Origin: Burkholderiales bacterium
GTDB lineage: Bacteria > Pseudomonadota > Gammaproteobacteria > Burkholderiales > Burkholderiaceae
Assembly (NCBI GenBank): GCA_947447845.1
Contig: CANFNO010000029.1
Span: 1 to 12,684, forward strand
DNA: 12,684 nucleotides
Reading direction: 5' to 3'
Shown: piece after piece, positions 802 to 12,684 of the stretch
How the letters are laid out: each line of letters begins with the position of its first letter
Numbering within the stretch: position 1 is the stretch's first letter
The notes under the pieces: generated by a model
Database searches by the model: none
Told to the model about the DNA's origin: nothing
What the model saw: only the letters and a program-made list of their open reading frames with translations
Position numbers and translations under genes: made by a program

Positions 802-1947
802 TCAAGGCTCGCTCAAAGAGACTCCAGACTGGCGCAAATAGCTTTGCACTTCTTTGCTGATGGGGCCCAGTGCACGGGCCTTGGCCGCTAACTCTGAAGC
901 ATTGGCGGCTTGCCCCAAAGCCGCCTGAGAGACTGCCGCACCCAGCAACCAGCGCTGCTCGTTCGGGCGTATTTGCAGGGCCGCGGTGTAGGCGCGCACG
1001 CTATCCTGGTGGCGTCCCAAACGCTGTGCAGCATTTCCACGCAGGGCCCAGGCATCAGCGTCCTGGCCGAGATAGGACTCCAATCGGGACAAACCGTCCA
1101 AGGCGGCCTGCGGTCTGCTATTGGCAATTTGCATGCGTGCCTGTTCGCGCGCGAGCGTTGCCAGCAGTTGCGCATTCGCACCCGTAGGCGACGAACCGGC
1201 AGTGCGTTCAGCAAGTACCAGGGCTTGCTGCAGCAGCTCGCTGGCGGCGTCATGCGAGCCTGCATTCCAAAGGCTCTGCGCCTGTGCCAAGGCCTCGCGT
1301 CCGGCCTGCAATTGACGCGCCGATCCGCCCTGCTGCGGCTCAGCATTGGCACCGGTGCTGTTGGCGGTTGTAGATCCCGTTACAGCGGCCGTACTTACCG
1401 GAGCAGCGGCGGCAGCAGGCAGGTCGGCTTTACCAAATGTCGCGGGGTTGTTTGTGGCCTTGCCTGGAAGCTCAACGGGTAAATTTGGCTTGACGGCTGC
1501 CTTTGCAGGTTTTGATGTGGCCTCCTGGCTTGCTGCGGCGGGTGCGCGCGGGGGTGTGTCGGCAGGAACTTGCACTGGCGCTGCCGCGGGTACGCTTGCA
1601 GCAACGGGTGCGGATGAAGCAGCAGTGGCTGGGGAAAGTGCAGTTTCAAACGTTAGCGTCGTCACCTTTCCAGGTTGACCCGAAGTCCGGGAATCAACCT
1701 GCGAAGTGCCTGCTGAAGAAGACTTTTGCCACCACCAAAAAGCACCTGCCACCAACACAAGCACCAAGACTGCCACAGCAACGAATATTCCTTTGCTGAA
1801 TCGGCCGTAGGCCTGCACAACGACAGGTGCATTGCCAACGCTGACTGTATCCCGGCGCAACGCCGTGTCACCTGGTTTGGCGTTTCCAAGGGGCTGCGGC
1901 GCCTGGCGCTGATCCAGGTCCCGCAGCATTTTGTTGATCACACTCAC
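802..1947 (-). CDS. mshN: MSHA biogenesis protein MshN (TPR protein with one membrane anchor)
   Basis: 381 aa. The start is placed at the GTG at 1945-1947, giving (M)SVINKMLRDLDQRQ, which matches the typical MshN N-terminus. It overlaps the mshM TGA by four bases (GTGA) and has AAGGGG (1956-1961) eight bases upstream; the frame is open further upstream only because mshM runs there. Architecture: a short cytoplasmic N-terminus; one transmembrane helix at about residues 52-71 followed by WWWQK; an Ala/Pro/Thr-rich periplasmic linker (about 100-205); then helical TPR-like repeats from 212 to the end (AREALAQAQSLWNAGSHDAA; AWALRGNAAQRLGRHQDSVR). MshN proteins belong to the MSHA pilus assembly apparatus; the exact role is not settled, and protein-protein scaffolding is the usual inference for the TPRs. 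It is the last gene of the assembly operon. Confidence 0.88.
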   Translation of the reverse strand: MSVINKMLRDLDQRQAPQPLGNAKPGDTALRRDTVSVGNAPVVVQAYGRFSKGIFVAVAVLVLVLVAGAFWWWQKSSSAGTSQVDSRTSGQPGKVTTLTFETALSPATAASSAPVAASVPAAAPVQVPADTPPRAPAAASQEATSKPAKAAVKPNLPVELPGKATNNPATFGKADLPAAAAAPVSTAAVTGSTTANSTGANAEPQQGGSARQLQAGREALAQAQSLWNAGSHDAASELLQQALVLAERTAGSSPTGANAQLLATLAREQARMQIANSRPQAALDGLSRLESYLGQDADAWALRGNAAQRLGRHQDSVRAYTAALQIRPNEQRWLLGAAVSQAALGQAANASELAAKARALGPISKEVQSYLRQSGVSLSEP

Positions 1948-2849
1948 AAGGCATTCCCCTTGGCATCGCGCAGCACGCCGGAACGCCGTCCCCAAGCGGC
2001 GCGCAGGCGCTGCCACCAGGGTTGGGTCCGCTTCAAACCCGGGGTATCTGCGGCGGCAAGACGCGCATGTTCCACGGTTACGCTGTGCACGCCTTCACCA
2101 TAGGCCAGCATCAAACTCTTGTGCGCCAGCACATTGATAAGCCGTGGCACACCACCGCTGGCCTTGGCGATGGCGGAGGCGGCTTGGGGGGTGAAAATTT
2201 CGCAGTCCACCGAGTCATCCAGCGCTGCAGTGGCCAAACGATGGGCTAGGTAAACCGGCACGCGGTCCAGTTGCATGGGACCCAGGTATTCGCTGAAGGT
2301 GATGCGCTGCAATAGCTGGCGAATCTCGGGACGAGCGAGTTTGGTGTCCAGATCGGGCTGACCCAGCAGCACAATTTGCAACAGCTTGCGTTTCTCGGTT
2401 TCCAGATTGGAGAGCAGACGCAGGCTTTCCACCGTGCGCACCGGAATGGCCTGGGCCTCGTCGATGCAGACCAGCACGCGCTTGCCCTGGCGTGCATGCT
2501 GCACCAGGCAGGCACCAATGCCATTCATCACCGCGTGACGCTGCACCGGGTGGCCGATGGCTACACCCAACTCATCGGCCAGTGCCAGCAGCAAATCGTC
2601 GGGCCCCATGTCGGGGTTGGGAATGTAAGCGGTGACAAATTCGCCCTGCAAAGTCTTGAGGAGTTGGCGGCACAGCACGGTCTTGCCGCAGCCCAACTCG
2701 CCCACAACTTTGAGAAAACCCTCGCCGCTACGCAGTGCCACCAACAGCATGTTGAGCGAAGCCTGCGCGCCTTCGTGCGGATAGAAAAAGTCGGTATCCG
2801 GTGTGATTGAAAAAGGCGCTTCCCGCAGCGAAAAATGCCCCAGGTACAT
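1944..2849 (-). CDS. mshM: MSHA biogenesis AAA+ ATPase MshM (ExeA/GspA-like)
   Basis: 301 aa. It begins MYLGHFSLREAPFSITPDTD, the classic N-terminus of MshM/ExeA/GspA-type ATPases (FxLxxxPFxxxPDxxFxY). Walker A is GELGCGKT at residues 50-57, Walker B is VLVCIDEAQ at 125-133, sensor 1 lies in LLGQPDL (161-167), and the GGVPRLIN motif (232-239) is typical of this family. There is no transmembrane helix, so it should be cytoplasmic or membrane-associated. By analogy with ExeA, which helps place the secretin in the cell wall, MshM probably assists MshL assembly or pilus positioning; that role is inferred. The ATG at 2847-2849 follows the mshL TAA with no gap (TAAATG), and its own stop overlaps the mshN start, so all three are probably translated in a coupled way. 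Confidence 0.93.
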   Translation of the reverse strand: MYLGHFSLREAPFSITPDTDFFYPHEGAQASLNMLLVALRSGEGFLKVVGELGCGKTVLCRQLLKTLQGEFVTAYIPNPDMGPDDLLLALADELGVAIGHPVQRHAVMNGIGACLVQHARQGKRVLVCIDEAQAIPVRTVESLRLLSNLETEKRKLLQIVLLGQPDLDTKLARPEIRQLLQRITFSEYLGPMQLDRVPVYLAHRLATAALDDSVDCEIFTPQAASAIAKASGGVPRLINVLAHKSLMLAYGEGVHSVTVEHARLAAADTPGLKRTQPWWQRLRAAWGRRSGVLRDAKGNAL

Positions 2850-4643
2850 TTACTTGGCCGGTCCGCCATCCAACTGAATCACACGGGCGCGGGCGTCGTC
2901 CATCTCGTCCAGCGCCACGCGCGCCTTGCGGCTTTGCTCTTCCCAATCGGCCGCACTGCGGATGATGGTCGGCTTGATCAAGACGATCACTTCGCGCTTG
3001 CGCCCGGCCGTAGCCTTGTTGCCAAACAGGGGCGCGAAGATGCTGCCGGTGGTGCCGGGCACGCCAGAGACATTGCGGCTGGAATCCATTTGCATCAGGC
3101 CGCCAATGGCCACGATGCGCCCGTCCTGTATGCGTACCAGGGTGTCGGTCTCGTTTACTGCGCTGGAAGCCAGCGGCAGCTTGTAGTTGCCAGCAGCGCC
3201 CAGGTCAATCTGCTTGGAGCTTTCGGTCACCGAGGTTACGGCCGGATGCACATGCAAAGTGACGTTGACACCGTCGTCGACCTGCGGCGTCACATCCAGC
3301 GAAATGCCGGAGAAGAACGGTGTCAGCGTGATGGTGGGCATGGTGGTGGTGTTGCCCGTCGTGCTGCTGCTAGTGCTGGGGCTTGAGCCGCCCGATACAT
3401 TGGTCACAAAGAAGGAATCGGTACCCACCTTCAGCACTGCCTTCTGGTTGTTCAGCGTGGCTACTCGCGGGCTGGACAGGGTTTGTACATCGCCCTGGGT
3501 TTCCAGAAAGCCCAGTACGGCGCCGAAGCTGTTGGTTTGCAAGGCCAGGCCAAACAGGCCGCCTGCCGTAGCCACCGATGGCACCGGCACAACGCCGCTC
3601 AGCGTAGTGGTGCCGCCTTGAAGCAGCATATTGGTGTTGGTCACCCCGCTGCCCAGTACGCCCACGGCCAAAGCCGCATCGGCGCTGGCGGCAAAGGCGC
3701 CCCAATTCACGCCGCTTTGAAAGCCATCCCGCAGTTCGACTTCGACCAACTTGGCCTCGAGCATGACCTGGCGCTCCACCGCAATTTGCGCTGCCTTCAA
3801 GAATTTTTCGACCTGGCGCAATTCATCCGGCATGGCGCGCACGGCCATGATGCCGGCCTGCGGACTGGTGATGACGCTGCGCCCCTCGCCACCGATCATG
3901 CCTTTGACTGCACCGGACAACTCGGACCAGAAATCGGTCTTGTTGGTGGTGGTGACTTTGCTACTTTCGGCCTGCTGTGAACTGCTAGAGGTCGAAGAGT
4001 TGGCGCCCGAGCTGGAGCTGGAGCTGATGTTCGAGTTGGAGCCACCACTTTGCGAGCCACCCGCCGACACGCGCAACTCGCTGCTGCCCACGCGCTGCGA
4101 GTTGGGATAGTTGACGGTAAAGATGCGCGTCTGCAGGGTCGGCGCGTAAATGATGATGCGTCGGCCTTCGATCTTGAAGTCGTAGCCATAGACATCGCGA
4201 ATCGACTCCAGCGCCTCGCTGACGGTGACACCGCGCAGCGTGACCGACAGCGTGCCACCCACATCCGGGTGCATCAGCATGCTGTAGCGGGTGTCGGCCA
4301 CGATGGCCAGAAACACGTCGCGCGCCTGGGCGTTGTTGACCAGCAGATCGATGCGTGGCTCGGGTGCAGGCTTGACGGGTGGGGGCGCCGGTTCGGCCAG
4401 CGCCTCGCTCACTTGCACAGGCACGGCTGCGGGTGCCTTGGGCGCTGTCGTCGGCAGGTCGGCCCGCATGGCGGCGCCCACGTCGGGTGTTTTCAGCACA
4501 TGTTCGGAGGCGCATCCGGAGAGCAGCCCCAAGGACAAAATTAGAGCCGTCAATGCATAGGCGCTTTCACGCTTTTCAGCGCTTCGTTCTGCGCGTGTCA
4601 TCGAGGCGCCATTTTCAAAAATATGCGGGGCTGGTGAGGTCAT
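2850..4643 (-). CDS. mshL: MSHA biogenesis protein MshL, outer-membrane secretin (lipoprotein)
   Basis: 597 aa. The N-terminus has a hydrophobic segment ending in the lipobox LLSGC (residues 40-44), so Cys44 should be lipidated and the pilotin function may be built in. A Pro-rich stretch (about 61-96) precedes a secretin N0/STN domain (about 97-170: VNNAQARDVFLAIVADTRYS). A Ser/Asn/Gly-rich low-complexity linker follows at about 193-230, then an N1-like region (RSVITSPQAGIMAVRAMPDE). The secretin barrel domain runs from about 290 to 562, with VQTLSSPRVATLNNQKAVLK, VTPQVDDGVNVTLHV and the C-terminal REVIVLIKPTII. A second Ser/Thr insert lies at about 418-435. MshL forms the outer-membrane channel for the pilus. 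The ATG at 4643 overlaps the mshK TGA (ATGA); a second in-frame ATG at codon 15 is possible and would shorten the unusual N-terminal extension before the signal peptide. Confidence 0.95.
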   Translation of the reverse strand: MTSPAPHIFENGASMTRAERSAEKRESAYALTALILSLGLLSGCASEHVLKTPDVGAAMRADLPTTAPKAPAAVPVQVSEALAEPAPPPVKPAPEPRIDLLVNNAQARDVFLAIVADTRYSMLMHPDVGGTLSVTLRGVTVSEALESIRDVYGYDFKIEGRRIIIYAPTLQTRIFTVNYPNSQRVGSSELRVSAGGSQSGGSNSNISSSSSSGANSSTSSSSQQAESSKVTTTNKTDFWSELSGAVKGMIGGEGRSVITSPQAGIMAVRAMPDELRQVEKFLKAAQIAVERQVMLEAKLVEVELRDGFQSGVNWGAFAASADAALAVGVLGSGVTNTNMLLQGGTTTLSGVVPVPSVATAGGLFGLALQTNSFGAVLGFLETQGDVQTLSSPRVATLNNQKAVLKVGTDSFFVTNVSGGSSPSTSSSTTGNTTTMPTITLTPFFSGISLDVTPQVDDGVNVTLHVHPAVTSVTESSKQIDLGAAGNYKLPLASSAVNETDTLVRIQDGRIVAIGGLMQMDSSRNVSGVPGTTGSIFAPLFGNKATAGRKREVIVLIKPTIIRSAADWEEQSRKARVALDEMDDARARVIQLDGGPAK

Positions 4644-5005
4644 GGAGTGGGCCTTTCGGTTGCGGTGTGGCGCTCGATGCCGCTGAACCTTTGGATTTTG
4701 CGAAGTTCTTTGCCATTGCGCAGCCAGACTTCCGTCTCGCCAATGCGCTCAATTTTGTAAGGACCGATGCTCTGCCCGACGCTATACAGCCGGGTACCAG
4801 CGACCAGATAGGGTTTGCCATCGCGCACGACCACAGCCGCACTGTCCACTTCAGGCATGGCTGGCTGGGTCACCGCGCCGGGCGCCGGGGCTTGGGTAAA
4901 AGTACCCGCAGGAGGACGTGTCGGGTCGCGCTCTTGTGCGGCTACCGGCCCAGCCACCAGCAGCACCGCAACGATTGAGAAAAGCACACGTAGCATCGGC
5001 GACAT
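4640..5005 (-). CDS. mshK: MSHA biogenesis protein MshK (PilP-like periplasmic protein)
   Basis: 121 aa from the ATG at 5003-5005, which shares one base with the mshJ stop (TGATG). A TTG one codon earlier (5006-5008) is the alternative start; AGGAG lies 10 bases before the ATG or 8 before the TTG, so the spacing does not settle it. The N-terminus is a signal peptide (hydrophobic core LFSIVAVLLVAGPVAAQ) followed by RDPTRPP, the hallmark after cleavage in MshK/PilP-type proteins. The C-terminal half (VVRDGKPYLVAGTRLYSVGQ then IGPYKIERI and EVWLRNGKEL) is a small beta domain like the PilP/GspC homology region, which links the inner-membrane complex to the secretin. The gene lies between mshJ and mshL, as expected for the family. 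The protein is likely periplasmic or anchored by an uncleaved leader. Confidence 0.85.
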   Translation of the reverse strand: MSPMLRVLFSIVAVLLVAGPVAAQERDPTRPPAGTFTQAPAPGAVTQPAMPEVDSAAVVVRDGKPYLVAGTRLYSVGQSIGPYKIERIGETEVWLRNGKELRKIQRFSGIERHTATERPTP

Positions 5006-5640
5006 CAATGTTGTACTCCTACGGCATAGACCTGCAGCGTCAACTCACTGAGTTGCTTTTCGGTCTTGAGTTCCATAGGCCCCCAGCGCAGTCCCGGCAG
5101 TGCGGTTTCCAGCGCCTGGACATAGCGCACCAGTTCCGCATACGGACCGGCAACCCGCAATGTCAGTCCGTGCTTGGTCAGTCCCGCAATCGGGGCCGAA
5201 CCGGCGGGTGCAACGGATGCTCCAGAGACCTCGGGCTTGAGTGTCTCCAGACTGAGCAGGGTCAGGCCTTCCTGGCGGCGCAGCAGGCGCTGCAGCACTT
5301 GCTCCAGCGCCGGGTCTTTCTGGTCGTTCGGTGCCAGGCCTTTAATCTCAGCGTTGAGCGCTTCGAGTCGCACAGCCGTCGCTCGCAATTCTTCGCGCGC
5401 GGCCTTGCCCGGATCATTGGGCACACCGGAACCAGCCAACTCGCCACGCAAGCGATCCAGTTCGGCGCTTTGCGCAACAAATCGCTGCAGCAAAGCCTTG
5501 TGCGCCGTTTGTGCCGGCGTGAACCATATGAAGTCGGCCAGCGCCAACACGCACACAAACACGGACATAAACAAAAACAAGCGCTCGCGCACACTCAGTG
5601 CGTCTATGCGTAGCAAGAGCTGTTGCAATTGCTGTTTCAT
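5005..5640 (-). CDS. mshJ: MSHA biogenesis protein MshJ (PilO/GspM-like)
   Basis: 211 aa from the ATG at 5638-5640, which overlaps the stop of the upstream PilN-like gene (ATGA); the open frame extends 24 codons further, but that part lies inside the neighbour and is not family-like. The start is MKQQLQQLLLRIDALSVRER. One transmembrane helix spans about residues 20-40, followed by a helical/coiled-coil stretch rich in Leu, Glu and Arg (about 45-130), then a small C-terminal alpha/beta domain (GLTLRVAGPYAELVRYVQAL; ELTLQVYAVG), the ferredoxin-like fold of PilO/GspM. It should pair with the PilN-like protein in the inner membrane to form the periplasmic alignment complex. Confidence 0.87.
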   Translation of the reverse strand: MKQQLQQLLLRIDALSVRERLFLFMSVFVCVLALADFIWFTPAQTAHKALLQRFVAQSAELDRLRGELAGSGVPNDPGKAAREELRATAVRLEALNAEIKGLAPNDQKDPALEQVLQRLLRRQEGLTLLSLETLKPEVSGASVAPAGSAPIAGLTKHGLTLRVAGPYAELVRYVQALETALPGLRWGPMELKTEKQLSELTLQVYAVGVQH

Positions 5641-6305
5641 GGTTTGGCCACCGGAGTTGTCGGGCCTGACGCGGGCGCAGAAGGCTGCGCACTCACCAAG
5701 TTGAAGGACCACATCGGCTTGGCCCTGATACCTGAGGCACCAGATCCACCTGGCTCGGCCACGTATTTGACATTGACCGCATTGAGCACCAGCCCGTTCA
5801 TCAGCGGATGCCGGCCCAGGCGCGCCACCCAGTCGTTCAAGGCGGCCGGCTCCAGGGCAAAGCCCGAGACTTCAAAACTGCCACTGTCGGCCTTTAGGGA
5901 GTTGACCCATGCGTCCGCCGGGATGCTGCGAGCCAGTAACAGCAGCCGGTCCGAGTGCCCCTCGCCCGCCTTGAAAAGCCCTCGGCGCGCCAGTTGCAAC
6001 AATTTTTCGTGCTCCTCCACACGGGCGCGTTGTTCTTGCAATTGGCTCAGCAGTCCCGCATCCACCGGCCCGGCAGCCGCCCGGCTGCTTTGAATGACGG
6101 CCTGCAAATTATGGATTTCGCTGTTCTGCGCCTCCAGCGTCTGGCGATAAGTCTGGGCCGAGCCTTCCAGACTCCACAACCAGAAGGCCCCCAGTGCACC
6201 CATTGCAACCAGGCTCACCGCAAGCATGCCCAGCAGAGACTGCGCCTGAAAACGCGGCCGCGCCTGCGTCAGGGCTGCGGTACAGAGGTTGATTTGCTGG
6301 GGCAT
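5637..6305 (-). CDS. PilN-like MSHA inner-membrane protein (MshI2-type)
   Basis: 222 aa from the ATG at 6303-6305, which gives MPQQINLC, close to the conserved PilN start (xxxINLL) that contacts the PilM-like partner; upstream codons in this frame fall inside mshI. It starts 5 bases after the mshI TAA, with only a weak ribosome binding site, so coupling to mshI is likely. One transmembrane helix lies at about residues 25-46 (MLAVSLVAMGALGAFWLWSL), followed by a coiled coil (about 48-112) and an alpha/beta C-terminal domain (VNSLKADSGSFEVSGFALEP; LNAVNVKYV) typical of PilN/GspL periplasmic domains. The C-terminus ends in a Pro/Ala-rich tail. It is annotated in some MSHA loci as a second MshI. 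Its role is a bridge between cytoplasmic MshI and periplasmic MshJ. Confidence 0.85.
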   Translation of the reverse strand: MPQQINLCTAALTQARPRFQAQSLLGMLAVSLVAMGALGAFWLWSLEGSAQTYRQTLEAQNSEIHNLQAVIQSSRAAAGPVDAGLLSQLQEQRARVEEHEKLLQLARRGLFKAGEGHSDRLLLLARSIPADAWVNSLKADSGSFEVSGFALEPAALNDWVARLGRHPLMNGLVLNAVNVKYVAEPGGSGASGIRAKPMWSFNLVSAQPSAPASGPTTPVAKP

Positions 6306-6310
6306 GGGCT

Positions 6311-7354
6311 TTAAGTGGCAGCGCCGGTGCGAAACAACAATCCCAACAAGGGCAAACACTTCATGGCGTGTTCATCACTCAGCTCCGGCACACCGTCAAA
6401 CAACGCAGAAGGGTCCAGCGTAGCCACGGCGTGCCCCAATCCCTGGCTCAACCAAGCAGCTAAATCTGCGGAGCGGCTACCCGCATGGACCACAACGCCG
6501 GCCATGGGCAGAGCCGTCCAGGTGCGATCCCACAAGTCGAGTGAGCGTTGCAACTCAACCAAAAAACGCTGTGCACGGTCATTCACCCCAAGATTTGAAT
6601 CGTCAGCACCCAGGGTTGATAGGCCGCCGTAGTCGGGCACGTATTCGCCCACAGGCGTATAGGCATCGACCGCCTCATGCGCCACCTCTGCGCCACCATC
6701 CCACTGCATGGCCATAAAGCCTGCCGGCAAATCCAGGCGACGGCTGTAGTAAAGCTCCTCGTTGGCACAAATGGTGAGCAAGGCCTGCTTGTCGTTCACC
6801 ACCACCAAAGCCGCTGTAGCGCGCCCGGCAAGACCTGCATATTTGGCCCAAGCGGACTGCATATTGCGCTGGGCCATCTCCTGCACATCAATAATCTGCA
6901 CGGTCCATTCTATGGACTCTGCCAATTGCATAGCTTCGCGAATGACGGTGTTGGCAGCCGCCACGACAAACAGTTGGCCCGCACTCTTTTCAAGGCCGTC
7001 GCCCAAGCGCAAAACATCCAATGTGAGGTCATCAATGTGCAAGTCCACCATATCGCGTATCTGGTAACGCGCAGCAGAGCGCAATTCTTCAGGAGGTACG
7101 GCAGGTGCTGCGATCTGCAGCAACATGCATTGCTCGGTGGTCAGCATGACAATGGCCCCCGGCCCGCCCAGACCCAGGTCAGCAACGCGGTGGGCAAAGT
7201 CTTTAGCTTTGTCTGTGCCCTGATACGCCACGCCCATGCGCTTGATGTTGAACCTTCCACCCGCGCTTGCCGCTTCTACATAAGCCAATGCCTGCCCACA
7301 CCAGGATACGATGAGATGGTCATGCGAACTTGCGCGTTTCCAGGGCCACTGCAT
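6311..7354 (-). CDS. mshI: MSHA biogenesis protein MshI (PilM-like, actin-like fold)
   Basis: 347 aa from the ATG at 7352-7354 (MQWPWKRASSHDHLIVSWCG). A TTG two codons upstream (7358-7360) has a GAG seven bases before it and is a possible alternative; neither has a strong ribosome binding site. There is no membrane segment. The fold looks like the PilM/actin ATPase family: LIVSWCGQALAYVEA near the N-terminus, an ELRSAARYQIRDMVDLHIDD segment typical of PilM-like proteins, and ATAALVVVNDKQALLTIC near the middle as the second beta-hairpin. It acts on the cytoplasmic face, binding the N-terminus of the PilN-like protein. It is the first gene of the assembly operon, preceded by a 153-bp non-coding gap, which suggests that a promoter lies there. 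Confidence 0.85.
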   Translation of the reverse strand: MQWPWKRASSHDHLIVSWCGQALAYVEAASAGGRFNIKRMGVAYQGTDKAKDFAHRVADLGLGGPGAIVMLTTEQCMLLQIAAPAVPPEELRSAARYQIRDMVDLHIDDLTLDVLRLGDGLEKSAGQLFVVAAANTVIREAMQLAESIEWTVQIIDVQEMAQRNMQSAWAKYAGLAGRATAALVVVNDKQALLTICANEELYYSRRLDLPAGFMAMQWDGGAEVAHEAVDAYTPVGEYVPDYGGLSTLGADDSNLGVNDRAQRFLVELQRSLDLWDRTWTALPMAGVVVHAGSRSADLAAWLSQGLGHAVATLDPSALFDGVPELSDEHAMKCLPLLGLLFRTGAAT

Positions 7355-7429
7355 GTTCAATCTGTGTCTCGAAGGCGGTAGGTGAATAAAGTCATTAATT
7401 ATGAACAGCGCCGTTTGTGCCTGGCCCTG

Positions 7430-7504
7430 TAGCTGCTCACATAATAATAGCTATTGGCGCTGCGAAACCAGCCAGACTTTCGCATTTTTGCCACTAGCGC
7501 AACG
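7430..7504. repeat. Possible degenerate dispersed intergenic element (Comamonadaceae type)
   Basis: The stretch contains TAGCTGCTCACATAATAATA followed by GCTATTGGCGC and, further right, GCCACTAGCGCAACGC. This combination of an AT-rich TAGCT...AGCTA segment next to GCGCTAG-type blocks resembles short dispersed intergenic repeats I remember from Rhodoferax, Polaromonas and Acidovorax genomes. The resemblance is from memory and only one copy is in the window, so copy number is untested. Confidence 0.35.
7461..7484. other. Perfect 7-bp inverted repeat (hairpin)
   Basis: TGCGAAA (7461-7467) and TTTCGCA (7478-7484) are exact inverted copies around a 10-base loop. An outer GCGC/GCGC pair (7457-7460 and 7497-7500) can extend the structure with an internal loop. 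Five T residues follow on the plus strand (7485-7489), but no gene is transcribed in that direction here. On the minus strand, which carries all genes around it, no U-run follows, so it is not a standard terminator for the glycosyltransferase mRNA. It could be a 3' end structure or part of the repeat element. Confidence 0.5.
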
Positions 7505-7507
7505 CTT

Positions 7508-9709
7508 TCATTGCGATGCGGCCTCAATCGCAAGATCAGAGGTCAATTTCTCACCAACGCACCAAGCCTGCCACATACGCCGGTACAGGGCATCGAGATC
7601 GTGCGTGAACTGCTTTGCATCACGCAAGGGACTGCTCTCAATAAGTGGGCGAAGTCGTTGGCGCAAGGCCTCTAAACGAGCCCCATCGGATGCCAGCGCA
7701 ACGGCGCCCGCAACATAGGAATCGCAATCCGCAAACGACAATTCCTGGGCCAGGCCAAGGTTGGCAAGTGCAGAAAATGTCTGGCGCGACACGACGGTAT
7801 CGCCCGCAATGGTCACCACTGGCACCCCCATCCACAGCGCCTCCAGTGTGGTCATGCCGCCATTGAAGGGAAACGTATCCAGTGCAATGTCGATGTCGCC
7901 GTATTCGCTGAGCATCACATCATGGCTGGAGCCTTCGCGCAGGTCCAGACTTTGCGGCGCGATGCCTGCTTTTTCAAAGCGCGTCAGCAATCGCTCGCGC
8001 ACCAGTTGCTCCGACAACGCGCTGCTCTTGACCACCAGTTTGCTGTTCGGCACCGACAGCAAAATCCGGCTCCAGGCATGCACGGCTTCATCGGTCACCT
8101 TGGGCAGGCGATTGAAGGATCCGAAAGTCACGAAGCCATTCCTTTTGGCAGGCAATTCGCTGACGTCCGGTGCGTAGGCCGGCGGCCCGTAGCAAAAGCG
8201 GGTGTGCGGCAAATGCACCGGCACCTCGCTAAACAACTGGCCACTGCCTGCGGGTGAGGTGAACGGATCGGTAATAAAGTAGTCCATAGCCGCCATGCCG
8301 GTGCTGTGGAAATAGCCAATCCATTCCACCTGAATTGGCGCCAACCGACGCGCAAAGGCCTGCAGCCGGTGGAACGCGGTATGGCCGGACAGGTCAACCA
8401 AAATGTCAATGTCGGCGGCCCCGATCAGGTCTGACACCTCATCGTCCGACAGGTAAAAAATGTCCTCCCAGGTGTCAGCCGCTTGGCGCAGTTCTGGCAA
8501 CACGTCGCCCGGGCGCACGACCATCGAAAAACAGTGAATGGAGAACTTTTGCTTGTCGTGGTGCCGCAAAATGTCTCGTAGCAAGAAGCCCACAGGATGG
8601 CGTGTGAAATCACCCGACACGTAGCCGATGCGCAGGGGTCTATGCACATCCCGGTCGGTACTGGCAAAGTCCTTTACCTTCAAAAGCGATGCCGTATGCT
8701 GCTCGGCCCACGCGCGGTGCAGTTCGAACAGTTGCTCGCGGCCCAATGCAGAGACGTTGTTGTATTCGAAGAGCAAGTTAGAACCCATGCCCGCCTGCGA
8801 CGGGTCAATTTCCAGGACTTTTTTGTACAACTCCACGGCCGTGCTGGAATCTCCCCCATTGCTCAGACACGCGCCCAAGGTGATCAGCGCGGTGAGATTG
8901 TCCGCTTGTCGCTCCAGCACGCGCCGGCACAAGGCCTCCGACTCGTCCAATTGCCCGTTCGCTTGATAGGCCGCCGCCAACATGCCCAGGTTTTGCAAAC
9001 TGTCACCGTGCACCGCCAATTTGCGTTTGAGGTAGTTGATGGCCTGCGCCAAATCTTCGCGCGTGCCCAAGAGCGAAGAAAGATTGAAATGCGCTTCGGG
9101 GTATCCCGGCTGCAACTCCAGCGCTTTTTTGTATTGCTTGATGCCCAGTTTGGTCTTGCCGGTGTGCACCAGCACATTGCCAAGATTCAGACAGGCTTCG
9201 GCACGCGACGGCTCATCTGCGGCGATCTGCTCGGCCAATTCTCTGGCTTGCTCAAACTGACCCTGCTCGAACAGCGCGGCGGTCTTGTTGATTCGCGCCT
9301 GAAAAAAACCAGGAGAACAAGCCAACGCACGGTCAAGCCACGGCAAGGCCTGCTCTGGCTGGCCGTTGGCGATATGCCATTCGCCCAAATTGCTGAGAAC
9401 TTCTGGATAGTCGGGTCTGAAAACCAGCGCCTGTTCGTAGGCTTTACGTGAACCGCCAAAGTCACCCACCTGACGCAGCGCTGCGCCCAGGCTGCACCAA
9501 AGTTCCGGAGCCTGTGCCTGAACCGCGATGGCCTTTTGCAACAGTTCTACCGCCTGCGCAGGTTCACCCCGTGCGAGCGCGCGCCGGGCCATGTTGTGCA
9601 GAGCCGCGACATCCCCTTGTGCGGCGCCGTGCTGTTCTAGTGTGTCGGCCACATTGCCCAGACCACGATGGTCCAGCCAGCGCGTGAACCAGCGTATGAG
9701 AAGACCCAT
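7508..9709 (-). CDS. TPR-containing GT41-family glycosyltransferase (OGT/SPINDLY-like)
   Basis: 733 aa. After a short N-terminal helix, about seven or eight TPR repeats span residues ~34-300 (LNLGNVLVHTGKTKLGIKQY and similar). The C-terminal half (about 358-715) is the two-lobed O-GlcNAc-transferase catalytic region: LRIGYVSGDFTRHPVGFLL (359-377; His371 aligns with the conserved His of OGT), ILVDLSGHTAFHRLQ followed by APIQVEWIGYFHSTG, the invariant-type MDYFITD, FGSFNRLPKVTD (529-540; Lys537 aligns with the UDP-contacting Lys of human OGT), and the nucleotide-sugar motif DTFPFNGGMTTLEALWMGVP (611-630). Known members move a single sugar from a nucleotide-sugar onto Ser/Thr of proteins in the cytoplasm. 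The donor here cannot be read from sequence. It starts 15 bases after the methyltransferase stop and lies in the pilin gene cluster, so pilin or another MSHA component is the obvious candidate acceptor (inference). No signal peptide or membrane helix. Confidence 0.9.
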   Translation of the reverse strand: MGLLIRWFTRWLDHRGLGNVADTLEQHGAAQGDVAALHNMARRALARGEPAQAVELLQKAIAVQAQAPELWCSLGAALRQVGDFGGSRKAYEQALVFRPDYPEVLSNLGEWHIANGQPEQALPWLDRALACSPGFFQARINKTAALFEQGQFEQARELAEQIAADEPSRAEACLNLGNVLVHTGKTKLGIKQYKKALELQPGYPEAHFNLSSLLGTREDLAQAINYLKRKLAVHGDSLQNLGMLAAAYQANGQLDESEALCRRVLERQADNLTALITLGACLSNGGDSSTAVELYKKVLEIDPSQAGMGSNLLFEYNNVSALGREQLFELHRAWAEQHTASLLKVKDFASTDRDVHRPLRIGYVSGDFTRHPVGFLLRDILRHHDKQKFSIHCFSMVVRPGDVLPELRQAADTWEDIFYLSDDEVSDLIGAADIDILVDLSGHTAFHRLQAFARRLAPIQVEWIGYFHSTGMAAMDYFITDPFTSPAGSGQLFSEVPVHLPHTRFCYGPPAYAPDVSELPAKRNGFVTFGSFNRLPKVTDEAVHAWSRILLSVPNSKLVVKSSALSEQLVRERLLTRFEKAGIAPQSLDLREGSSHDVMLSEYGDIDIALDTFPFNGGMTTLEALWMGVPVVTIAGDTVVSRQTFSALANLGLAQELSFADCDSYVAGAVALASDGARLEALRQRLRPLIESSPLRDAKQFTHDLDALYRRMWQAWCVGEKLTSDLAIEAASQ

Positions 9710-9724
9710 GCAAAGCCCCCGCAG

Positions 9725-10441
9725 TCAGGCCGTTGAAGGCAGATAGGCGCTTACCAACGCCCGCATTTCGTCCTCGGACCGTTTGGATTTACTGGCAACC
9801 ACCCACATGTCAAACAAGGGGGGACGCCTGAAACCCGCTATCGACGGGAATCCTGCCTCGCGCAAAACGCCTACCAAGGTGGTGAAGGTAAAACCGCTGC
9901 GGTGGGCCATCCAGGGATTTTTTTCCAGCACGGGCCGGTAGCCATACAGGATGTCAAACGTGGTTACGGGCCCGGCGAAAGCGTCATACAGGGGCTCCAG
10001 CAGTCGGTCTTGCTCCACCATGGAGGCCAGGGCTTGCACATCCGGACAGGTGATGACGACGAAACCCGTGTCATTCAGCACCCGCAAAAATTCGGCCAAC
10101 GCCTTGGGAACTTCATGCCAGATCAAATGCTCAATCGAATGCGAGGAATAGACCGCATCAACCAGGCCGGATGACACAGCAAACATATCCGTCATGCTGC
10201 CCTCGATGTCCGGGTAAACCGATGCATCCAGGTCCAGGCGCAGTTCACGCCAGCCGGGCTCTTGAAAACCCGCCACAGGAATATGAGAAATGTTGGAGGG
10301 GCCGCACCCCACATGCAACAGCAGCTTTTCGCCTTCGTTTGAGATCAGCTTGGGGCGTTCTGTCGCCAAGCCATGGCGACGCTGAAAACCGGTCAGCCAT
10401 CGCTCCACCCAAGCGCCAACCCAAGCCGCTAGCGGTTTCAT
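9725..10441 (-). CDS. Class I SAM-dependent methyltransferase
   Basis: 238 aa. The Rossmann SAM-binding motif I is LLLHVGCGPSN (about 40-50); acidic residues for the ribose are in LRLDLD (67-72); the VDAVYSSHSIEHL block (94-106) matches the post-II motif of Methyltransf_11-type enzymes, followed by LAEFLRVLNDTGFVVITCPD. The C-terminal part (FDILYGYRPVLEKNPWMAHR, then GFTFTTLVGVLREAGF) is shared with methyltransferases in polysaccharide and glycan clusters as I remember them. The substrate cannot be read. Its ATG overlaps the stop of the 94-aa gene (ATGA), and it precedes the GT41 gene by 15 bases, so methylation of the added glycan, or of the same target protein, is a reasonable inference. 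No transmembrane helix; cytoplasmic. Confidence 0.85.
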   Translation of the reverse strand: MKPLAAWVGAWVERWLTGFQRRHGLATERPKLISNEGEKLLLHVGCGPSNISHIPVAGFQEPGWRELRLDLDASVYPDIEGSMTDMFAVSSGLVDAVYSSHSIEHLIWHEVPKALAEFLRVLNDTGFVVITCPDVQALASMVEQDRLLEPLYDAFAGPVTTFDILYGYRPVLEKNPWMAHRSGFTFTTLVGVLREAGFPSIAGFRRPPLFDMWVVASKSKRSEDEMRALVSAYLPSTA

Positions 10442-10722
10442 GCGCTGGCAGTGAAGGCGTTCAGCACCAGCGAAAACACAACTTTGCGAACAATTTCCGC
10501 ATCAAAGCCGGCCTTGAGCAGCAACTTCTGAAAATGGTAGGTGGCACGTGCTCGCCCAATAGGGCCTAGTGCGAACTTCTGGCGAATGAGCTTGGCGTCT
10601 TTGTGAAACTTGCTGAGTGCCTGGGCCCACTCCGCTTCACTCATTCGCTTCTTTTGATTGGCTGGCACGCAGCGGGCAAATGCCTCATTGAGTGCCAACG
10701 CGGCTTCAGCGAATTTGGTCAC
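10438..10722 (-). CDS. Small helical protein of unknown function between pilin and methyltransferase
   Basis: 94 aa from the GTG at 10720-10722, chosen because GGAAGGA (10727-10733) lies just upstream; a TTG at 10738-10740 would add six residues (MWWKDF) but would place that Shine-Dalgarno inside the gene. The protein is predicted wholly helical, rich in Ala, Lys, Arg and Leu, with no signal peptide or membrane helix. The most distinctive stretch is FALGPIGRARATYHFQKLLL, followed by KAGFDAEIVRKVVFSLVLNAF. I do not recognise the family. Its stop overlaps the methyltransferase ATG by four bases and it lies 65 bases behind the pilin stop, so it is almost certainly co-expressed with the modification enzymes; an accessory or adaptor role is only a guess. 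Confidence 0.75.
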   Translation of the reverse strand: MTKFAEAALALNEAFARCVPANQKKRMSEAEWAQALSKFHKDAKLIRQKFALGPIGRARATYHFQKLLLKAGFDAEIVRKVVFSLVLNAFTASA

Positions 10723-10787: not shown

Positions 10788-11183
10788 TTAGCCGGTGCAA
10801 ATAATGGTAGCGGTTGCAGTGGCCGTTCCGCCAACATAGGACAGCCCAACCGTCTTTGAAGCCCCGACCGTGGTACCGCAGGTGGCATCAGTGCCCACCG
10901 CGAATTTGGCGTCCCACGTTCCCATGCTGGCGACCAACAAAGCACCGGCACCCGATGCACTCAAACGCACGGCATTGGCCGTATTGGTGCTGTTGGCCTG
11001 GTAGGCTGCGTAGTTGATGGCGGAGTAAGAAGACAGCGCACCGGCAGCGCCCGTGATGGCAGCAGTCTTGGCGTCAGAACTGAGGTCCACAAACTTGGGC
11101 AATGCCACGGCGGCCAGCACACCCAGAATCACGATAACCATCACCAGCTCAATGAGCGTAAAGCCACGTTGCTCTTTTTTCAC
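10788..11183 (-). CDS. mshA: Type IV prepilin, MSHA major-pilin type (MshA)
   Basis: 131 aa from the GTG at 11181-11183, chosen because it gives the short leader MKKEQRG directly before [20 protein letters not shown] and has GGAAAGG (11192-11198) eight bases upstream; the longer open frame from an ATG at 11252 lacks a ribosome binding site. Prepilin peptidase would cut after Gly7 and methylate Phe8; Glu12 (Glu5 of the mature pilin) is present. The mature protein of 124 residues has the N-terminal hydrophobic helix running into [17 protein letters not shown], as in MshA pilins. Cys102 and Cys129 can form the C-terminal disulfide (D-region). The globular part is rich in Ala, Ser, Thr and Gly, including ANSTNTAN and [10 protein letters not shown], giving many possible O-glycosylation sites. 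It is preceded by a 143-bp leader region and followed by a hairpin, fitting a highly expressed subunit. A minor pilin (MshB-type) is the alternative. Confidence 0.85.
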
Positions 11184-11326
11184 GATGCCAACCTTTCCAT
11201 AGTGTTTATATTGAACTTCAGGTATTTCGTACCTTAACCTGACGGAGATCATACTTAGCTTTGTACGCAGGTTTACTCTATGCCACCGGTTTTATCTCAA
11301 AAAGTCGGGAATGTTGCGCTTTTTTC
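11184..11326 (-). promoter_or_regulatory. Upstream region of the pilin gene
   Basis: This is the only long non-coding stretch before mshA and probably carries a promoter of its own. A TATGAT box (11248-11253, minus strand) is the best -10 candidate and would give a leader of about 58 bases, but no good -35 is seen at 16-18 bases, and I found no sigma-54 -24/-12 pair with correct spacing. Two small inverted repeats follow in the leader: AGGTA-CGAAA-TACCT (11220-11234) and the 9-base palindrome TGAAGTTCA (11212-11220). Confidence 0.35.
11192..11198 (-). promoter_or_regulatory. Ribosome binding site of mshA
   Basis: GGAAAGG on the minus strand, eight bases before the GTG at 11183. It decides in favour of the GTG start with a seven-residue prepilin leader. 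Confidence 0.7.
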
Positions 11327-11800
11327 TCACTCCAGTCGCTGGTCTTGCCAGCGATAGGACTGCATCGCGGTGATCTGCAAGGGACCCGGTGGTGCGCTGA
11401 TCCGAAACCACACCCCGCTGGTGTCGGCAGCAGTGTTCAGCGCGTAGGAATACAGCGGCTCATATCCGATGCAGCGGCAGTACGCATCAAAGACCCAAGT
11501 GCCCGGCTTCAACAGTTTGGCCTGGTTTTCTGACAACACGCCGGCGTAGTTGGCGGGCACAGGTGCCAGCAATAGAAAAGGGTTTGTTTGCGCCGGAGTG
11601 GCTTGCTCGTTGCCATCTATCGCGCGCTTCAAATGATCCAAAAGTAAGGCTGTGCGCAAGGCGCCCAGTGTGGTCTTGACAGCAGCCAATTCGCCTTGGG
11701 CCTGCACGTTGCGGAATTCCCGGCCGAAATAGGCCGTCACCAACATAATGATCAGCAGCGTCAATCCCCACTCCACCGCCCGTCGACTCGTGCGCGCCAC
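11327..11800 (-). CDS. MshF/pseudopilin-like single-pass membrane protein
   Basis: 157 aa from the GTG at 11798-11800, supported by GGAGG (11808-11812) seven bases upstream and by a gap of only 3 bases after the mshG stop. One transmembrane helix lies at about residues 11-27 (WGLTLLIIMLVTAYFGREF), followed by an amphipathic helix (GELAAVKTTLGALRTALLLD) and a globular C-terminus with NPFLLLAPVPANYAG, PGTWVFDAYCRC and a second hydrophobic strand, a pattern seen in minor pseudopilin-like proteins of MSHA/type II secretion loci. The classical prepilin cleavage motif G-FTLIE is absent, although Glu10 sits just ahead of the helix. The position between mshG and the pilin gene is that of mshF in Vibrio, so MshF is the best guess. 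It probably belongs to the inner-membrane or pilus-tip assembly, but function is unproven. Confidence 0.7.
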   Translation of the reverse strand: MARTSRRAVEWGLTLLIIMLVTAYFGREFRNVQAQGELAAVKTTLGALRTALLLDHLKRAIDGNEQATPAQTNPFLLLAPVPANYAGVLSENQAKLLKPGTWVFDAYCRCIGYEPLYSYALNTAADTSGVWFRISAPPGPLQITAMQSYRWQDQRLE

Positions 11801-11803
11801 GCC

Positions 11804-12684
11804 CTAACCTCCGCCCTTGCCCATGGCGGCCTGTCCCAGGTTCCATAGCGGCAGAAAAACGCCCAGCGCCAGCAGCAACACCAGTCCTGCAATGACGACC
11901 AACAGCAAGGGTTCAATGGCGGCGGAAAGGCCTTTGATGGCGTAGTCGGTGTCGCGCTCGTACATATCGGCAATTTCAAACAGAAGGCTGTCGAGTTCAC
12001 CCGTTTCTTCGCCGACATTAATCATCTGCAACACCACGGGCGTGAACACGCCAGTGGCGGTGGCGCAGCGCGAGATGCTCTCGCCGCGTTCAATGCCGTC
12101 GCGCATCTGTTCGATGCGGCTGCCGATATAGGCGTTGTCCACGGTCTGCGCCACCACGGTCAAGGCCTGCACCAACGGCACGCCACTTTGACTGGACAGC
12201 GCAAAGCTGCGCGCGAAGCGCGACAGCGTGGCCTTGAGAATGATGTCGCCAATGATGGGGAGCTTGAGCTTGCGGGAGTCCCATTGGTAGCGGCCCTTGG
12301 GGGTTCGTACATAGCTTCGGACCGACATCGTGGCAGCCACGCCGAGCGCAATCACCAAGGGCCACCATGCCACCATCCAACGGGAGAAGCCCAACAGGCC
12401 GCGAGTAATCAGTGGCAGTTCGGTATGAAAGCCGTCAAAGACTTTGGCAAATACCGGAATCACAAAAATGTTCAAAACCACAATAGCCGCCGCCATGGCA
12501 ATCATCACAAACATCGGGTAGCGCGTGGCTTGCTTGATGCGCTCGCGCACATCGCGCTCAAATTCCATATGTTCGTTAAGGCGCAGAAACACTTCCGTCA
12601 GGCGCCCGGTCATTTCACCGACCCGCACCATTGAGATATAAAAAGCGCCAAACAAATCCTGATGCCGCGCCAGTGCCGCCGACA
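11804..12684 (-). CDS. mshG: MSHA biogenesis protein MshG, GspF/PilC-family platform protein (5' end outside window)
   Basis: The last 293 residues are visible; the frame stays open to the window edge (…SAALARHQDLFGAFYISMV), so the TTG at 12655 is internal. Two halves of the duplicated T2SSF domain are recognisable: the end of the first (YISMVRVGEMTGRLTEVFLR) and the full second (LSRFARSFALSSQSGVPLVQ through MINVGEETGELDSLLFEIAD). Three hydrophobic segments are seen: MFVMIAMAAAIVVLNIFVIP after domain one, WWPLVIALGVAATMSV, and the C-terminal PLLLVVIAGLVLLLALGVFL. MshG is the inner-membrane platform on which the assembly ATPase (MshE, expected just upstream outside the window) drives pilin polymerisation. 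It ends with GKGGG and a TAG three bases before the MshF-like start. Confidence 0.93.
   Translation of the reverse strand, partial: SAALARHQDLFGAFYISMVRVGEMTGRLTEVFLRLNEHMEFERDVRERIKQATRYPMFVMIAMAAAIVVLNIFVIPVFAKVFDGFHTELPLITRGLLGFSRWMVAWWPLVIALGVAATMSVRSYVRTPKGRYQWDSRKLKLPIIGDIILKATLSRFARSFALSSQSGVPLVQALTVVAQTVDNAYIGSRIEQMRDGIERGESISRCATATGVFTPVVLQMINVGEETGELDSLLFEIADMYERDTDYAIKGLSAAIEPLLLVVIAGLVLLLALGVFLPLWNLGQAAMGKGGG
11808..11812 (-). promoter_or_regulatory. Ribosome binding site of the MshF-like gene inside mshG
   Basis: GGAGG on the minus strand is formed by the terminal glycine codons of mshG and lies seven bases before the GTG start at 11800. It indicates coupled translation of the two genes and fixes the start. 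Confidence 0.8.

Follow-up and report, generated by a model that had tools for sequence, protein, structure and literature searches.

A putative pilin-modification module is built into the mannose-sensitive hemagglutinin (MSHA) pilus operon of a Burkholderiales bacterium [assembly GCA_947447845.1], on a 12,684-nucleotide stretch of contig CANFNO010000029.1 which is referred to here as the window. Directly behind the pilin gene mshA, and ahead of the assembly genes, lie three genes which specify a 94-residue protein (p94), a class I S-adenosylmethionine (SAM) methyltransferase (MT) and a glycosyltransferase of family GT41 carrying TPR repeats. We propose, with a probability of roughly two in three, that the GT41 enzyme glycosylates the MshA prepilin from the cytoplasm, with p94 in the role of an adaptor or chaperone and MT adding a methyl group to the sugar or to the pilin. 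The pilin gene and the three genes behind it are:

10788..11183, minus strand: mshA, MSHA-type major pilin (N_methyl 2.5e-9; likely GTG start, with leader and ribosome site)
10438..10722, minus strand: p94, 94 residues (34 homologues; AlphaFold2 pLDDT 89.8; family of about 90–120 residues)
9725..10441, minus strand: MT, class I SAM methyltransferase, 238 residues (PF08241, 1.8e-6; model pLDDT 84.6)
7508..9709, minus strand: TPR + GT41 glycosyltransferase, SPINDLY-like, 733 residues (PF13844, 8.9e-49)

These genes are tightly coupled. The p94 gene starts at GTG 10722 with a GGAAGG site upstream, its stop overlaps the start of MT in the sequence ATGA (10438–10441), and 15 bp separate MT from GT41. 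The last stands two small genes behind mshA and is followed directly by mshI after a gap of about 150 bp (7360–7508); gene ends were taken from the longest open frames, and distances are approximate. The pilin frame is open from 10788 to 11252, with GTG 11183 the most likely start. A preliminary description of this DNA had placed the three genes behind the pilin gene and before the assembly genes, with overlapping or near-overlapping junctions; its coordinates are right, the domains are found by Pfam, and the ATGA overlap and the 15-bp gap are as it gave them.

The arrangement recurs. Five further genomes (G001, G401, G458, G049 and G012), which were found by their holding p94 or GT41 and therefore give no frequency, carry both between mshA and the minor pilin genes. 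In G001 (locus L001), G401 and G458 the order is gspF, mshB-like, mshA, p94, MT and GT41, then minor pilins and an MshQ-like gene; in G458 the mshB-like open reading frame (ORF) overlaps gspF. G049 has mshA, a divergent 92-residue relative of p94, MT, GT41 and minor pilins, while G012 has copies of mshA, a divergent 101-residue relative of p94, GT41, an FkbM ORF [PF05050, 2.3e-13] and minor pilins. This FkbM methyltransferase is of an unrelated kind at the place of MT; the other four genomes share the MT family of the window. A tree of 62 catalytic domains places the enzymes of the window, G001, G401, G458 and G049, together with nine database relatives, in one clade with a support of 0.997. 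The GT41 of G012 falls outside this clade, near p94-linked GT41s of PilA-type loci (its exact place having low support), which suggests at least two arrivals of GT41 at mshA. Relatives of all three proteins are also present in Rhodoferax sp. GW822-FHT02A01 (GT41 72%, p94 67%, MT 60%).

The association of p94 with GT41 and pilin genes extends beyond MSHA loci. Twenty-two p94 loci were assembled, consisting of 19 new matches to a widened p94 profile (18 at E ≤5.7e-5 and one at 0.0014) and three p94-positive loci among 20 control loci chosen by GT41. A TPR or GT41 ORF lies within 1 kb of p94 in 20 of the 22; a recount using the GT41 catalytic part alone, and not TPR-only matches, places this domain in 15 loci, in 12 of them within 1 kb. 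A type IV pilin gene occurs in the stretch in 15 of the 22 loci, the pilins mostly having a PilA-like start (GFTLIELMIVVAIIGILAA), and related p94 modules are found near PilA-type pilin genes in non-MSHA loci. When only loci with a GT41 catalytic domain are compared, 11/15 of those with p94 have a pilin gene versus 1/17 of those without it [Fisher p=1.3e-4]; the genomes of one order are related, and the p-values for p94 and pilins are optimistic. The lone p94-less locus with a pilin (L192) has four pseudopilin-like genes in a row. When equal longest-contig size is taken as a rough proxy for shared contigs, the matches listed give at least 8 coincidences of p94 with GT41 (chance mean 0.2) and at least 17 of GT41 with MT (chance mean 0.7). 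These counts support a linkage between type IV pilin genes and those GT41 loci that are marked by p94, and the recurrence beside genes for pilus proteins suggests that sugars are put on pili from inside the cell.

Some of these loci also carry a GspE/PilB-type ATPase near the pilin, TPR/GT41 and p94 genes, as in L175:14137–18229 (GAF-MshEN-T2SSE) and L180:9827–13871, with a GAF-HD-domain gene beside it in both; similar ATPase matches occur in L164, L167, L168, L173, L178 and L179. The MshEN domain of the L175 ATPase suggests control by cyclic di-GMP.

The p94 protein and its homologues form a family in which four helices are predicted and whose genes are linked with those for TPR/GT41 proteins and pilins. 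The helices of the p94 model span residues 3–18, 29–50, 54–70 and 75–90. Looked at as a possible FliS/FlaF-like secretion chaperone, p94 has this four-helix model but no specific structural relative found in the PDB; in Pfam the sole match is to DUF2087 at an E of 0.15, below the cut-off, and the family is without a Pfam entry. A narrow p94 profile found 1/399 genomes of the order, this being the search centre G001, and 4/399 genomes of the family (G001, G401, G458 and G723). The profile widened with divergent members found 29/394 genomes at E 0.01, a lower bound at that cut in which the weakest matches may be due to chance; 20 of these are at ≤5.7e-5, three of them being in the profile itself. 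It missed p94-like ORFs in G183, G133 and G225 (loci L183, L186 and L189). The relative orientation of p94 and its neighbour differs between loci, which argues against a single copied block. In G723 p94 is the N-terminal domain of a longer protein, which continues with TPR repeats and has a GT9-like end. At L015:9504–11333 we observed a fusion of a p94 domain with TPR repeats and a GT9-like terminal part, in a 20-kb locus where no MSHA genes were recognised except for a weak MshN-like TPR match.

The glycosyltransferase matches PF13844 at 166.6 bits against a cut-off of 25. Its TPR matches lie within residues 35–306 and the GT41 domain begins at 354, giving TPR and GT-B halves in one protein. 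The nearest solved relative is Arabidopsis SPINDLY (SPY; 384 bits), and by alignment D367, H371, N533 and K537 are the equivalents of SPY D491, H495, N661 and K665; all four are invariant in our GT41 alignment. K665 and H495 of SPY are active-site residues which have been shown to matter (PMC9715652). SPY Y744 and T748 are replaced by F615 and M619. F615 stands at the position of C917 in human OGT and is not the small residue associated with a UDP-N-acetylglucosamine (UDP-GlcNAc) donor. According to section 12 of PMC9715652 a bulky residue there leaves no room for GlcNAc, and Phe is present in ApHMW1C, which uses UDP-glucose; the rule is a proposal of that section and is suggestive only. Since F615 is as in the hexose-using ApHMW1C, versus Cys in human OGT, GlcNAc is doubtful as the donor. 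The same section describes two solved bacterial GT41 members with little or no O-GlcNAc activity. The NCBIfam NGT model scores 27.9 bits against a cut-off of 1000.

A conserved N-terminal segment (..RW..RWLDRRGLG..VADTL) runs through the GT41 clade, and the N-terminus of MT loosely resembles it (W..WL..F..RHGL). Several p94-linked GT41 proteins start with M..W[LF][KR], and we considered whether this might be a membrane anchor. A strict amphipathic test gave 5/38 versus 0/24 [p=0.15] and the idea was set aside. A looser motif, defined post hoc from the sequences, gave 13/38 versus 0/24 in these ORF sets, which include some matching GT41 through TPR repeats alone, and 11/30 versus 0/26 among catalytic ORFs alone; an N-terminal anchor is a lead only.

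The predicted fold of MT is that of a class I enzyme with an extra N-terminal helix. This extension is lacking in shorter homologues such as P0234 and in the methyltransferase half of P0063, a protein in which GT41 and MT are fused. Lysine trimethylation of PilA1 is on record in Synechocystis (PMC12288463), so MT could act on protein.

We infer that the sugar which GT41 would transfer onto the MshA prepilin is small, more probably a hexose or deoxyhexose than GlcNAc, and that the transfer would take place on the cytoplasmic side before or during entry of the prepilin into the membrane. The four-helix p94 would couple the TPR transferase to prepilins as an adaptor or chaperone, and may keep the prepilin in reach. 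MT would methylate the sugar, or the pilin itself, after the GT41 step.

A number of observations weigh against this interpretation, the first being rarity. At least 3/394 genomes of the order have the cassette (the search centre G001, G012 and G049), as judged from 30 GT41 loci; because the GT41 search took in no more than two candidates from each genome, the true number may be higher. MshL was over the cut-off in 151/394 genomes, and the list of these provided a frequency sample of 38 genomes, 17 of them with the full MSHA order. The cassette is absent from all 17 full loci, as is p94. In these the gene next after mshA is one for a minor pilin, except in G308, where it is MshQ-like, and in G197, where the minor pilin block is inverted; in G183 an 85-residue ORF on the opposite strand intervenes. 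GT41 genes, for their part, are common in the order (131/394 genomes at E 1e-90). One might accordingly suppose that the cassette sits in the operon by chance and has no role in the pilus, an explanation which the rarity and the abundance of GT41 favor. We consider it very unlikely, since GT41s of two lineages and methyltransferases of two kinds have entered at the same junction, the genes are tightly spaced, and p94 is associated with pilins.

The linkage data have their own exceptions. In the 20 loci chosen by GT41, taken alone, a pilin gene is present in 2/3 with p94 versus 1/17 without [p=0.046], a weak contrast. Seven of the 22 p94 loci have no GT41 catalytic domain, six of them having TPR ORFs only (two with a GT9-like motif) and one, L168, being without TPR, GT41 or pilin; seven are without a visible pilin, some of these on short contigs. 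No significant difference in the Ser/Thr content of MshA was seen between six cassette loci and 17 lacking it [p=0.07], and the structure matches of the MT model are generic in fold.

Topology is a further difficulty. Prepilins normally enter the membrane early, so the access of a cytoplasmic enzyme is a problem. The transferase might instead act in a regulatory capacity on a cytoplasmic MSHA component (e.g. MshE, MshI or MshN) or on another protein of the cell, the pilin not being its target. A cytoplasmic TPR–GT41 enzyme would reach such proteins without this problem; MSHA operons encode cytoplasmic partners, and SPY is nucleocytoplasmic (PMC9715652). We think this unlikely, given that in five other genomes, too, the module comes immediately after the pilin gene, that its p94 relatives also stand near PilA-type pilin genes outside MSHA loci, and that the cyanobacterial precedent discussed below concerns the pilin.

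TPR–GT41 enzymes are known as protein transferases, which speaks against a third explanation, namely that the genes help to build a lipid-linked or surface glycan which a membrane oligosaccharyltransferase attaches to the pilin in the periplasm. Consistent with such a route, and also to be counted against cytoplasmic glycosylation, is a Wzy_C (O-antigen ligase-like) membrane gene at L180:5227–6708, which adjoins a PilA-type gene near a p94-like gene. An acyltransferase gene adjoins p94 in L176, and in V. cholerae pglL is upstream of msh (PMC6901666). A Pfam scan of window ORFs (10 + 4), however, shows no ligase or flippase family, Wzy_C included, and in G001, G458 and G049 the gene order does not allow for one in the interval from mshA to the minor pilins, so we regard this explanation as highly improbable; G401 has one unscanned 203-residue ORF on the opposite strand at this place.

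Glycosylation of the MshA prepilin from the cytoplasm thus remains our preferred reading. The preliminary description spoke of a candidate pilin glycan-modification cassette, and this is borne out as far as the gene content, the recurrence at mshA, the p94–GT41–pilin link and the cyanobacterial precedent go; an OGT-like enzyme using GlcNAc fits poorly with F615. A neighborhood survey for a recurrent link with MSHA pilin genes did find one, though it is rare. That the cassette would be an unusual and different route of pilus decoration was too strong a statement in view of the work on cyanobacterial Ogt and PilA. Ogt-type glycosylation of pilins in cyanobacteria and cytoplasmic glycosylation of flagellin in Caulobacter are already known; what appears to be new is the placing in an MSHA locus, together with the coupled methyltransferases and the p94 family. 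An MSHA or p94 version of GT41/OGT-type pilin glycosylation was not found among the listed titles and abstract beginnings of open-licence PMC papers, and the available part of PMC7762298 has nothing on GT41/OGT-type pilin glycosylation.

If correct, the idea developed for cyanobacterial Ogt and pilA would also hold for the MSHA and PilA-type pili of Burkholderiales-like bacteria, where methylation and a small dedicated partner protein come in addition. The presence of p94 would be an easy guide to which of the many bacterial GT41 enzymes have pilins as their substrates, and, if p94 presents prepilins to the enzyme, the access of a cytoplasmic enzyme to a membrane-bound pilin becomes directly testable. 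More tentatively, and at somewhat below even odds, p94 might represent a hitherto unrecognised family whose members, as prepilin adaptors or chaperones, enable cytoplasmic TPR glycosyltransferases (GT41 and others) to decorate type IV pilins of several kinds, MSHA and PilA-like, before insertion into the membrane. This would then be a pilin counterpart of the flagellin route, order-wide in extent and repeatedly assembled with different transferases and methyltransferases.

The surrounding locus is of MSHA type, with an mshA pilin, an MshL secretin and the mshI–N block. On the minus strand the order is mshG(gspF)-mshB-mshA-p94-MT-GT41-mshI, followed by PilN-like, mshJ, mshK, mshL, mshM and mshN-like genes. 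The genes around the cassette are:

11804..12655, minus strand: mshG/gspF-like inner-membrane platform protein, truncated at the window edge (T2SSF 1e-40; GspF model 1.4e-71, under cut-off)
11327..11800, minus strand: mshB-like (without Pfam match; 45% identity to the same-position gene of L001)
6311..7360, minus strand: mshI, PilM-like (PilM_2 5.9e-6, just below cut-off; 49% identity to the L001 counterpart)
5637..6359, minus strand: PilN-like gene (PF05137, 5.4e-8)
5005..5712, minus strand: mshJ-like, T2SSM type (T2SSM 0.0032, below cut-off)
4640..5008, minus strand: mshK-like (without Pfam match; 43% identity to the L001 counterpart)
2850..4643, minus strand: mshL secretin (Secretin 1.8e-28; TIGR02519 219 bits)
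1944..2849, minus strand: mshM-like ATPase (AAA_22 4.4e-25; 47–54% identity to same-position genes of ten other MSHA loci)
802..2016, minus strand: mshN-like TPR protein (TPR_1 1.5e-7; same-position homologues in four MSHA loci 25–51% identical)

The MshL score falls short of the strict 250-bit cut-off of TIGR02519. Unlike the other MSHA loci examined, the 12.7-kb window has no minor pilin or MshQ-like genes that we could find behind mshA or the cassette; these may lie outside it. Two tandem MshA-type pilins occur in 11 of the 17 cassette-free loci (G279, G232, G197, G227, G316, G244, G149, G219, G364, G161 and G183), while the cassette loci have one copy (window, G001, G401 and G458), two (G049) or three (G012). 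A FitA-like antitoxin and a PIN-domain toxin [PF22513, PF01850] are encoded among the MSHA minor pilin genes at L001:13246–13928.

Among known systems, PglL, PilO and TfpO glycosylate type IV pilins as membrane enzymes, using lipid-linked glycans in the periplasm; no such oligosaccharyltransferase was recognised among the scanned ORFs of the window. The HMW1C-type enzyme of Actinobacillus is a GT41 which modifies an exported adhesin and has Phe at the donor-size position as does ours, but the window enzyme differs from it in its TPR repeats, its pilin linkage and its low NGT score. The SPY O-fucosyltransferase shares the TPR and GT41 architecture and the four conserved residues, and differs at the positions of F615 and M619, in the linkage to a pilin gene and in the conserved N-terminal segment.

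Also among the closest systems are the cyanobacterial Ogt genes, which stand beside pilA and are involved in glycosylation of PilA (PMC12288463, PMC9260433); this modification is attributed to Synpcc7942_0051, which has TPR repeats and an OGT domain, in PMC9260433, where Suban 2022 is cited for it. PF13844 matches were obtained in 2/14 control genomes, Synechococcus elongatus among them. The likeness to the window, which is one of description, lies in the TPR repeats with an O-GlcNAc-transferase-type domain and in the position beside a pilin gene. The cyanobacterial pilin, however, is PilA and not MSHA, and the available parts of these papers mention no methyltransferase or p94-like partner, both of which the window has. 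FlmG of Caulobacter crescentus has, like the window enzyme, a TPR half and a GT-B half in one protein; it is soluble and cytoplasmic, and its TPR half binds flagellin, which is modified in the cytoplasm (PMC7591256). Unlike the enzyme proposed here it acts on flagellin with pseudaminic acid as donor, and the words GT41 and methyltransferase do not appear in the main text of that paper. FlmG nonetheless shows that both the binding of filament subunits and their cytoplasmic modification are within the reach of a TPR–GT-B enzyme.

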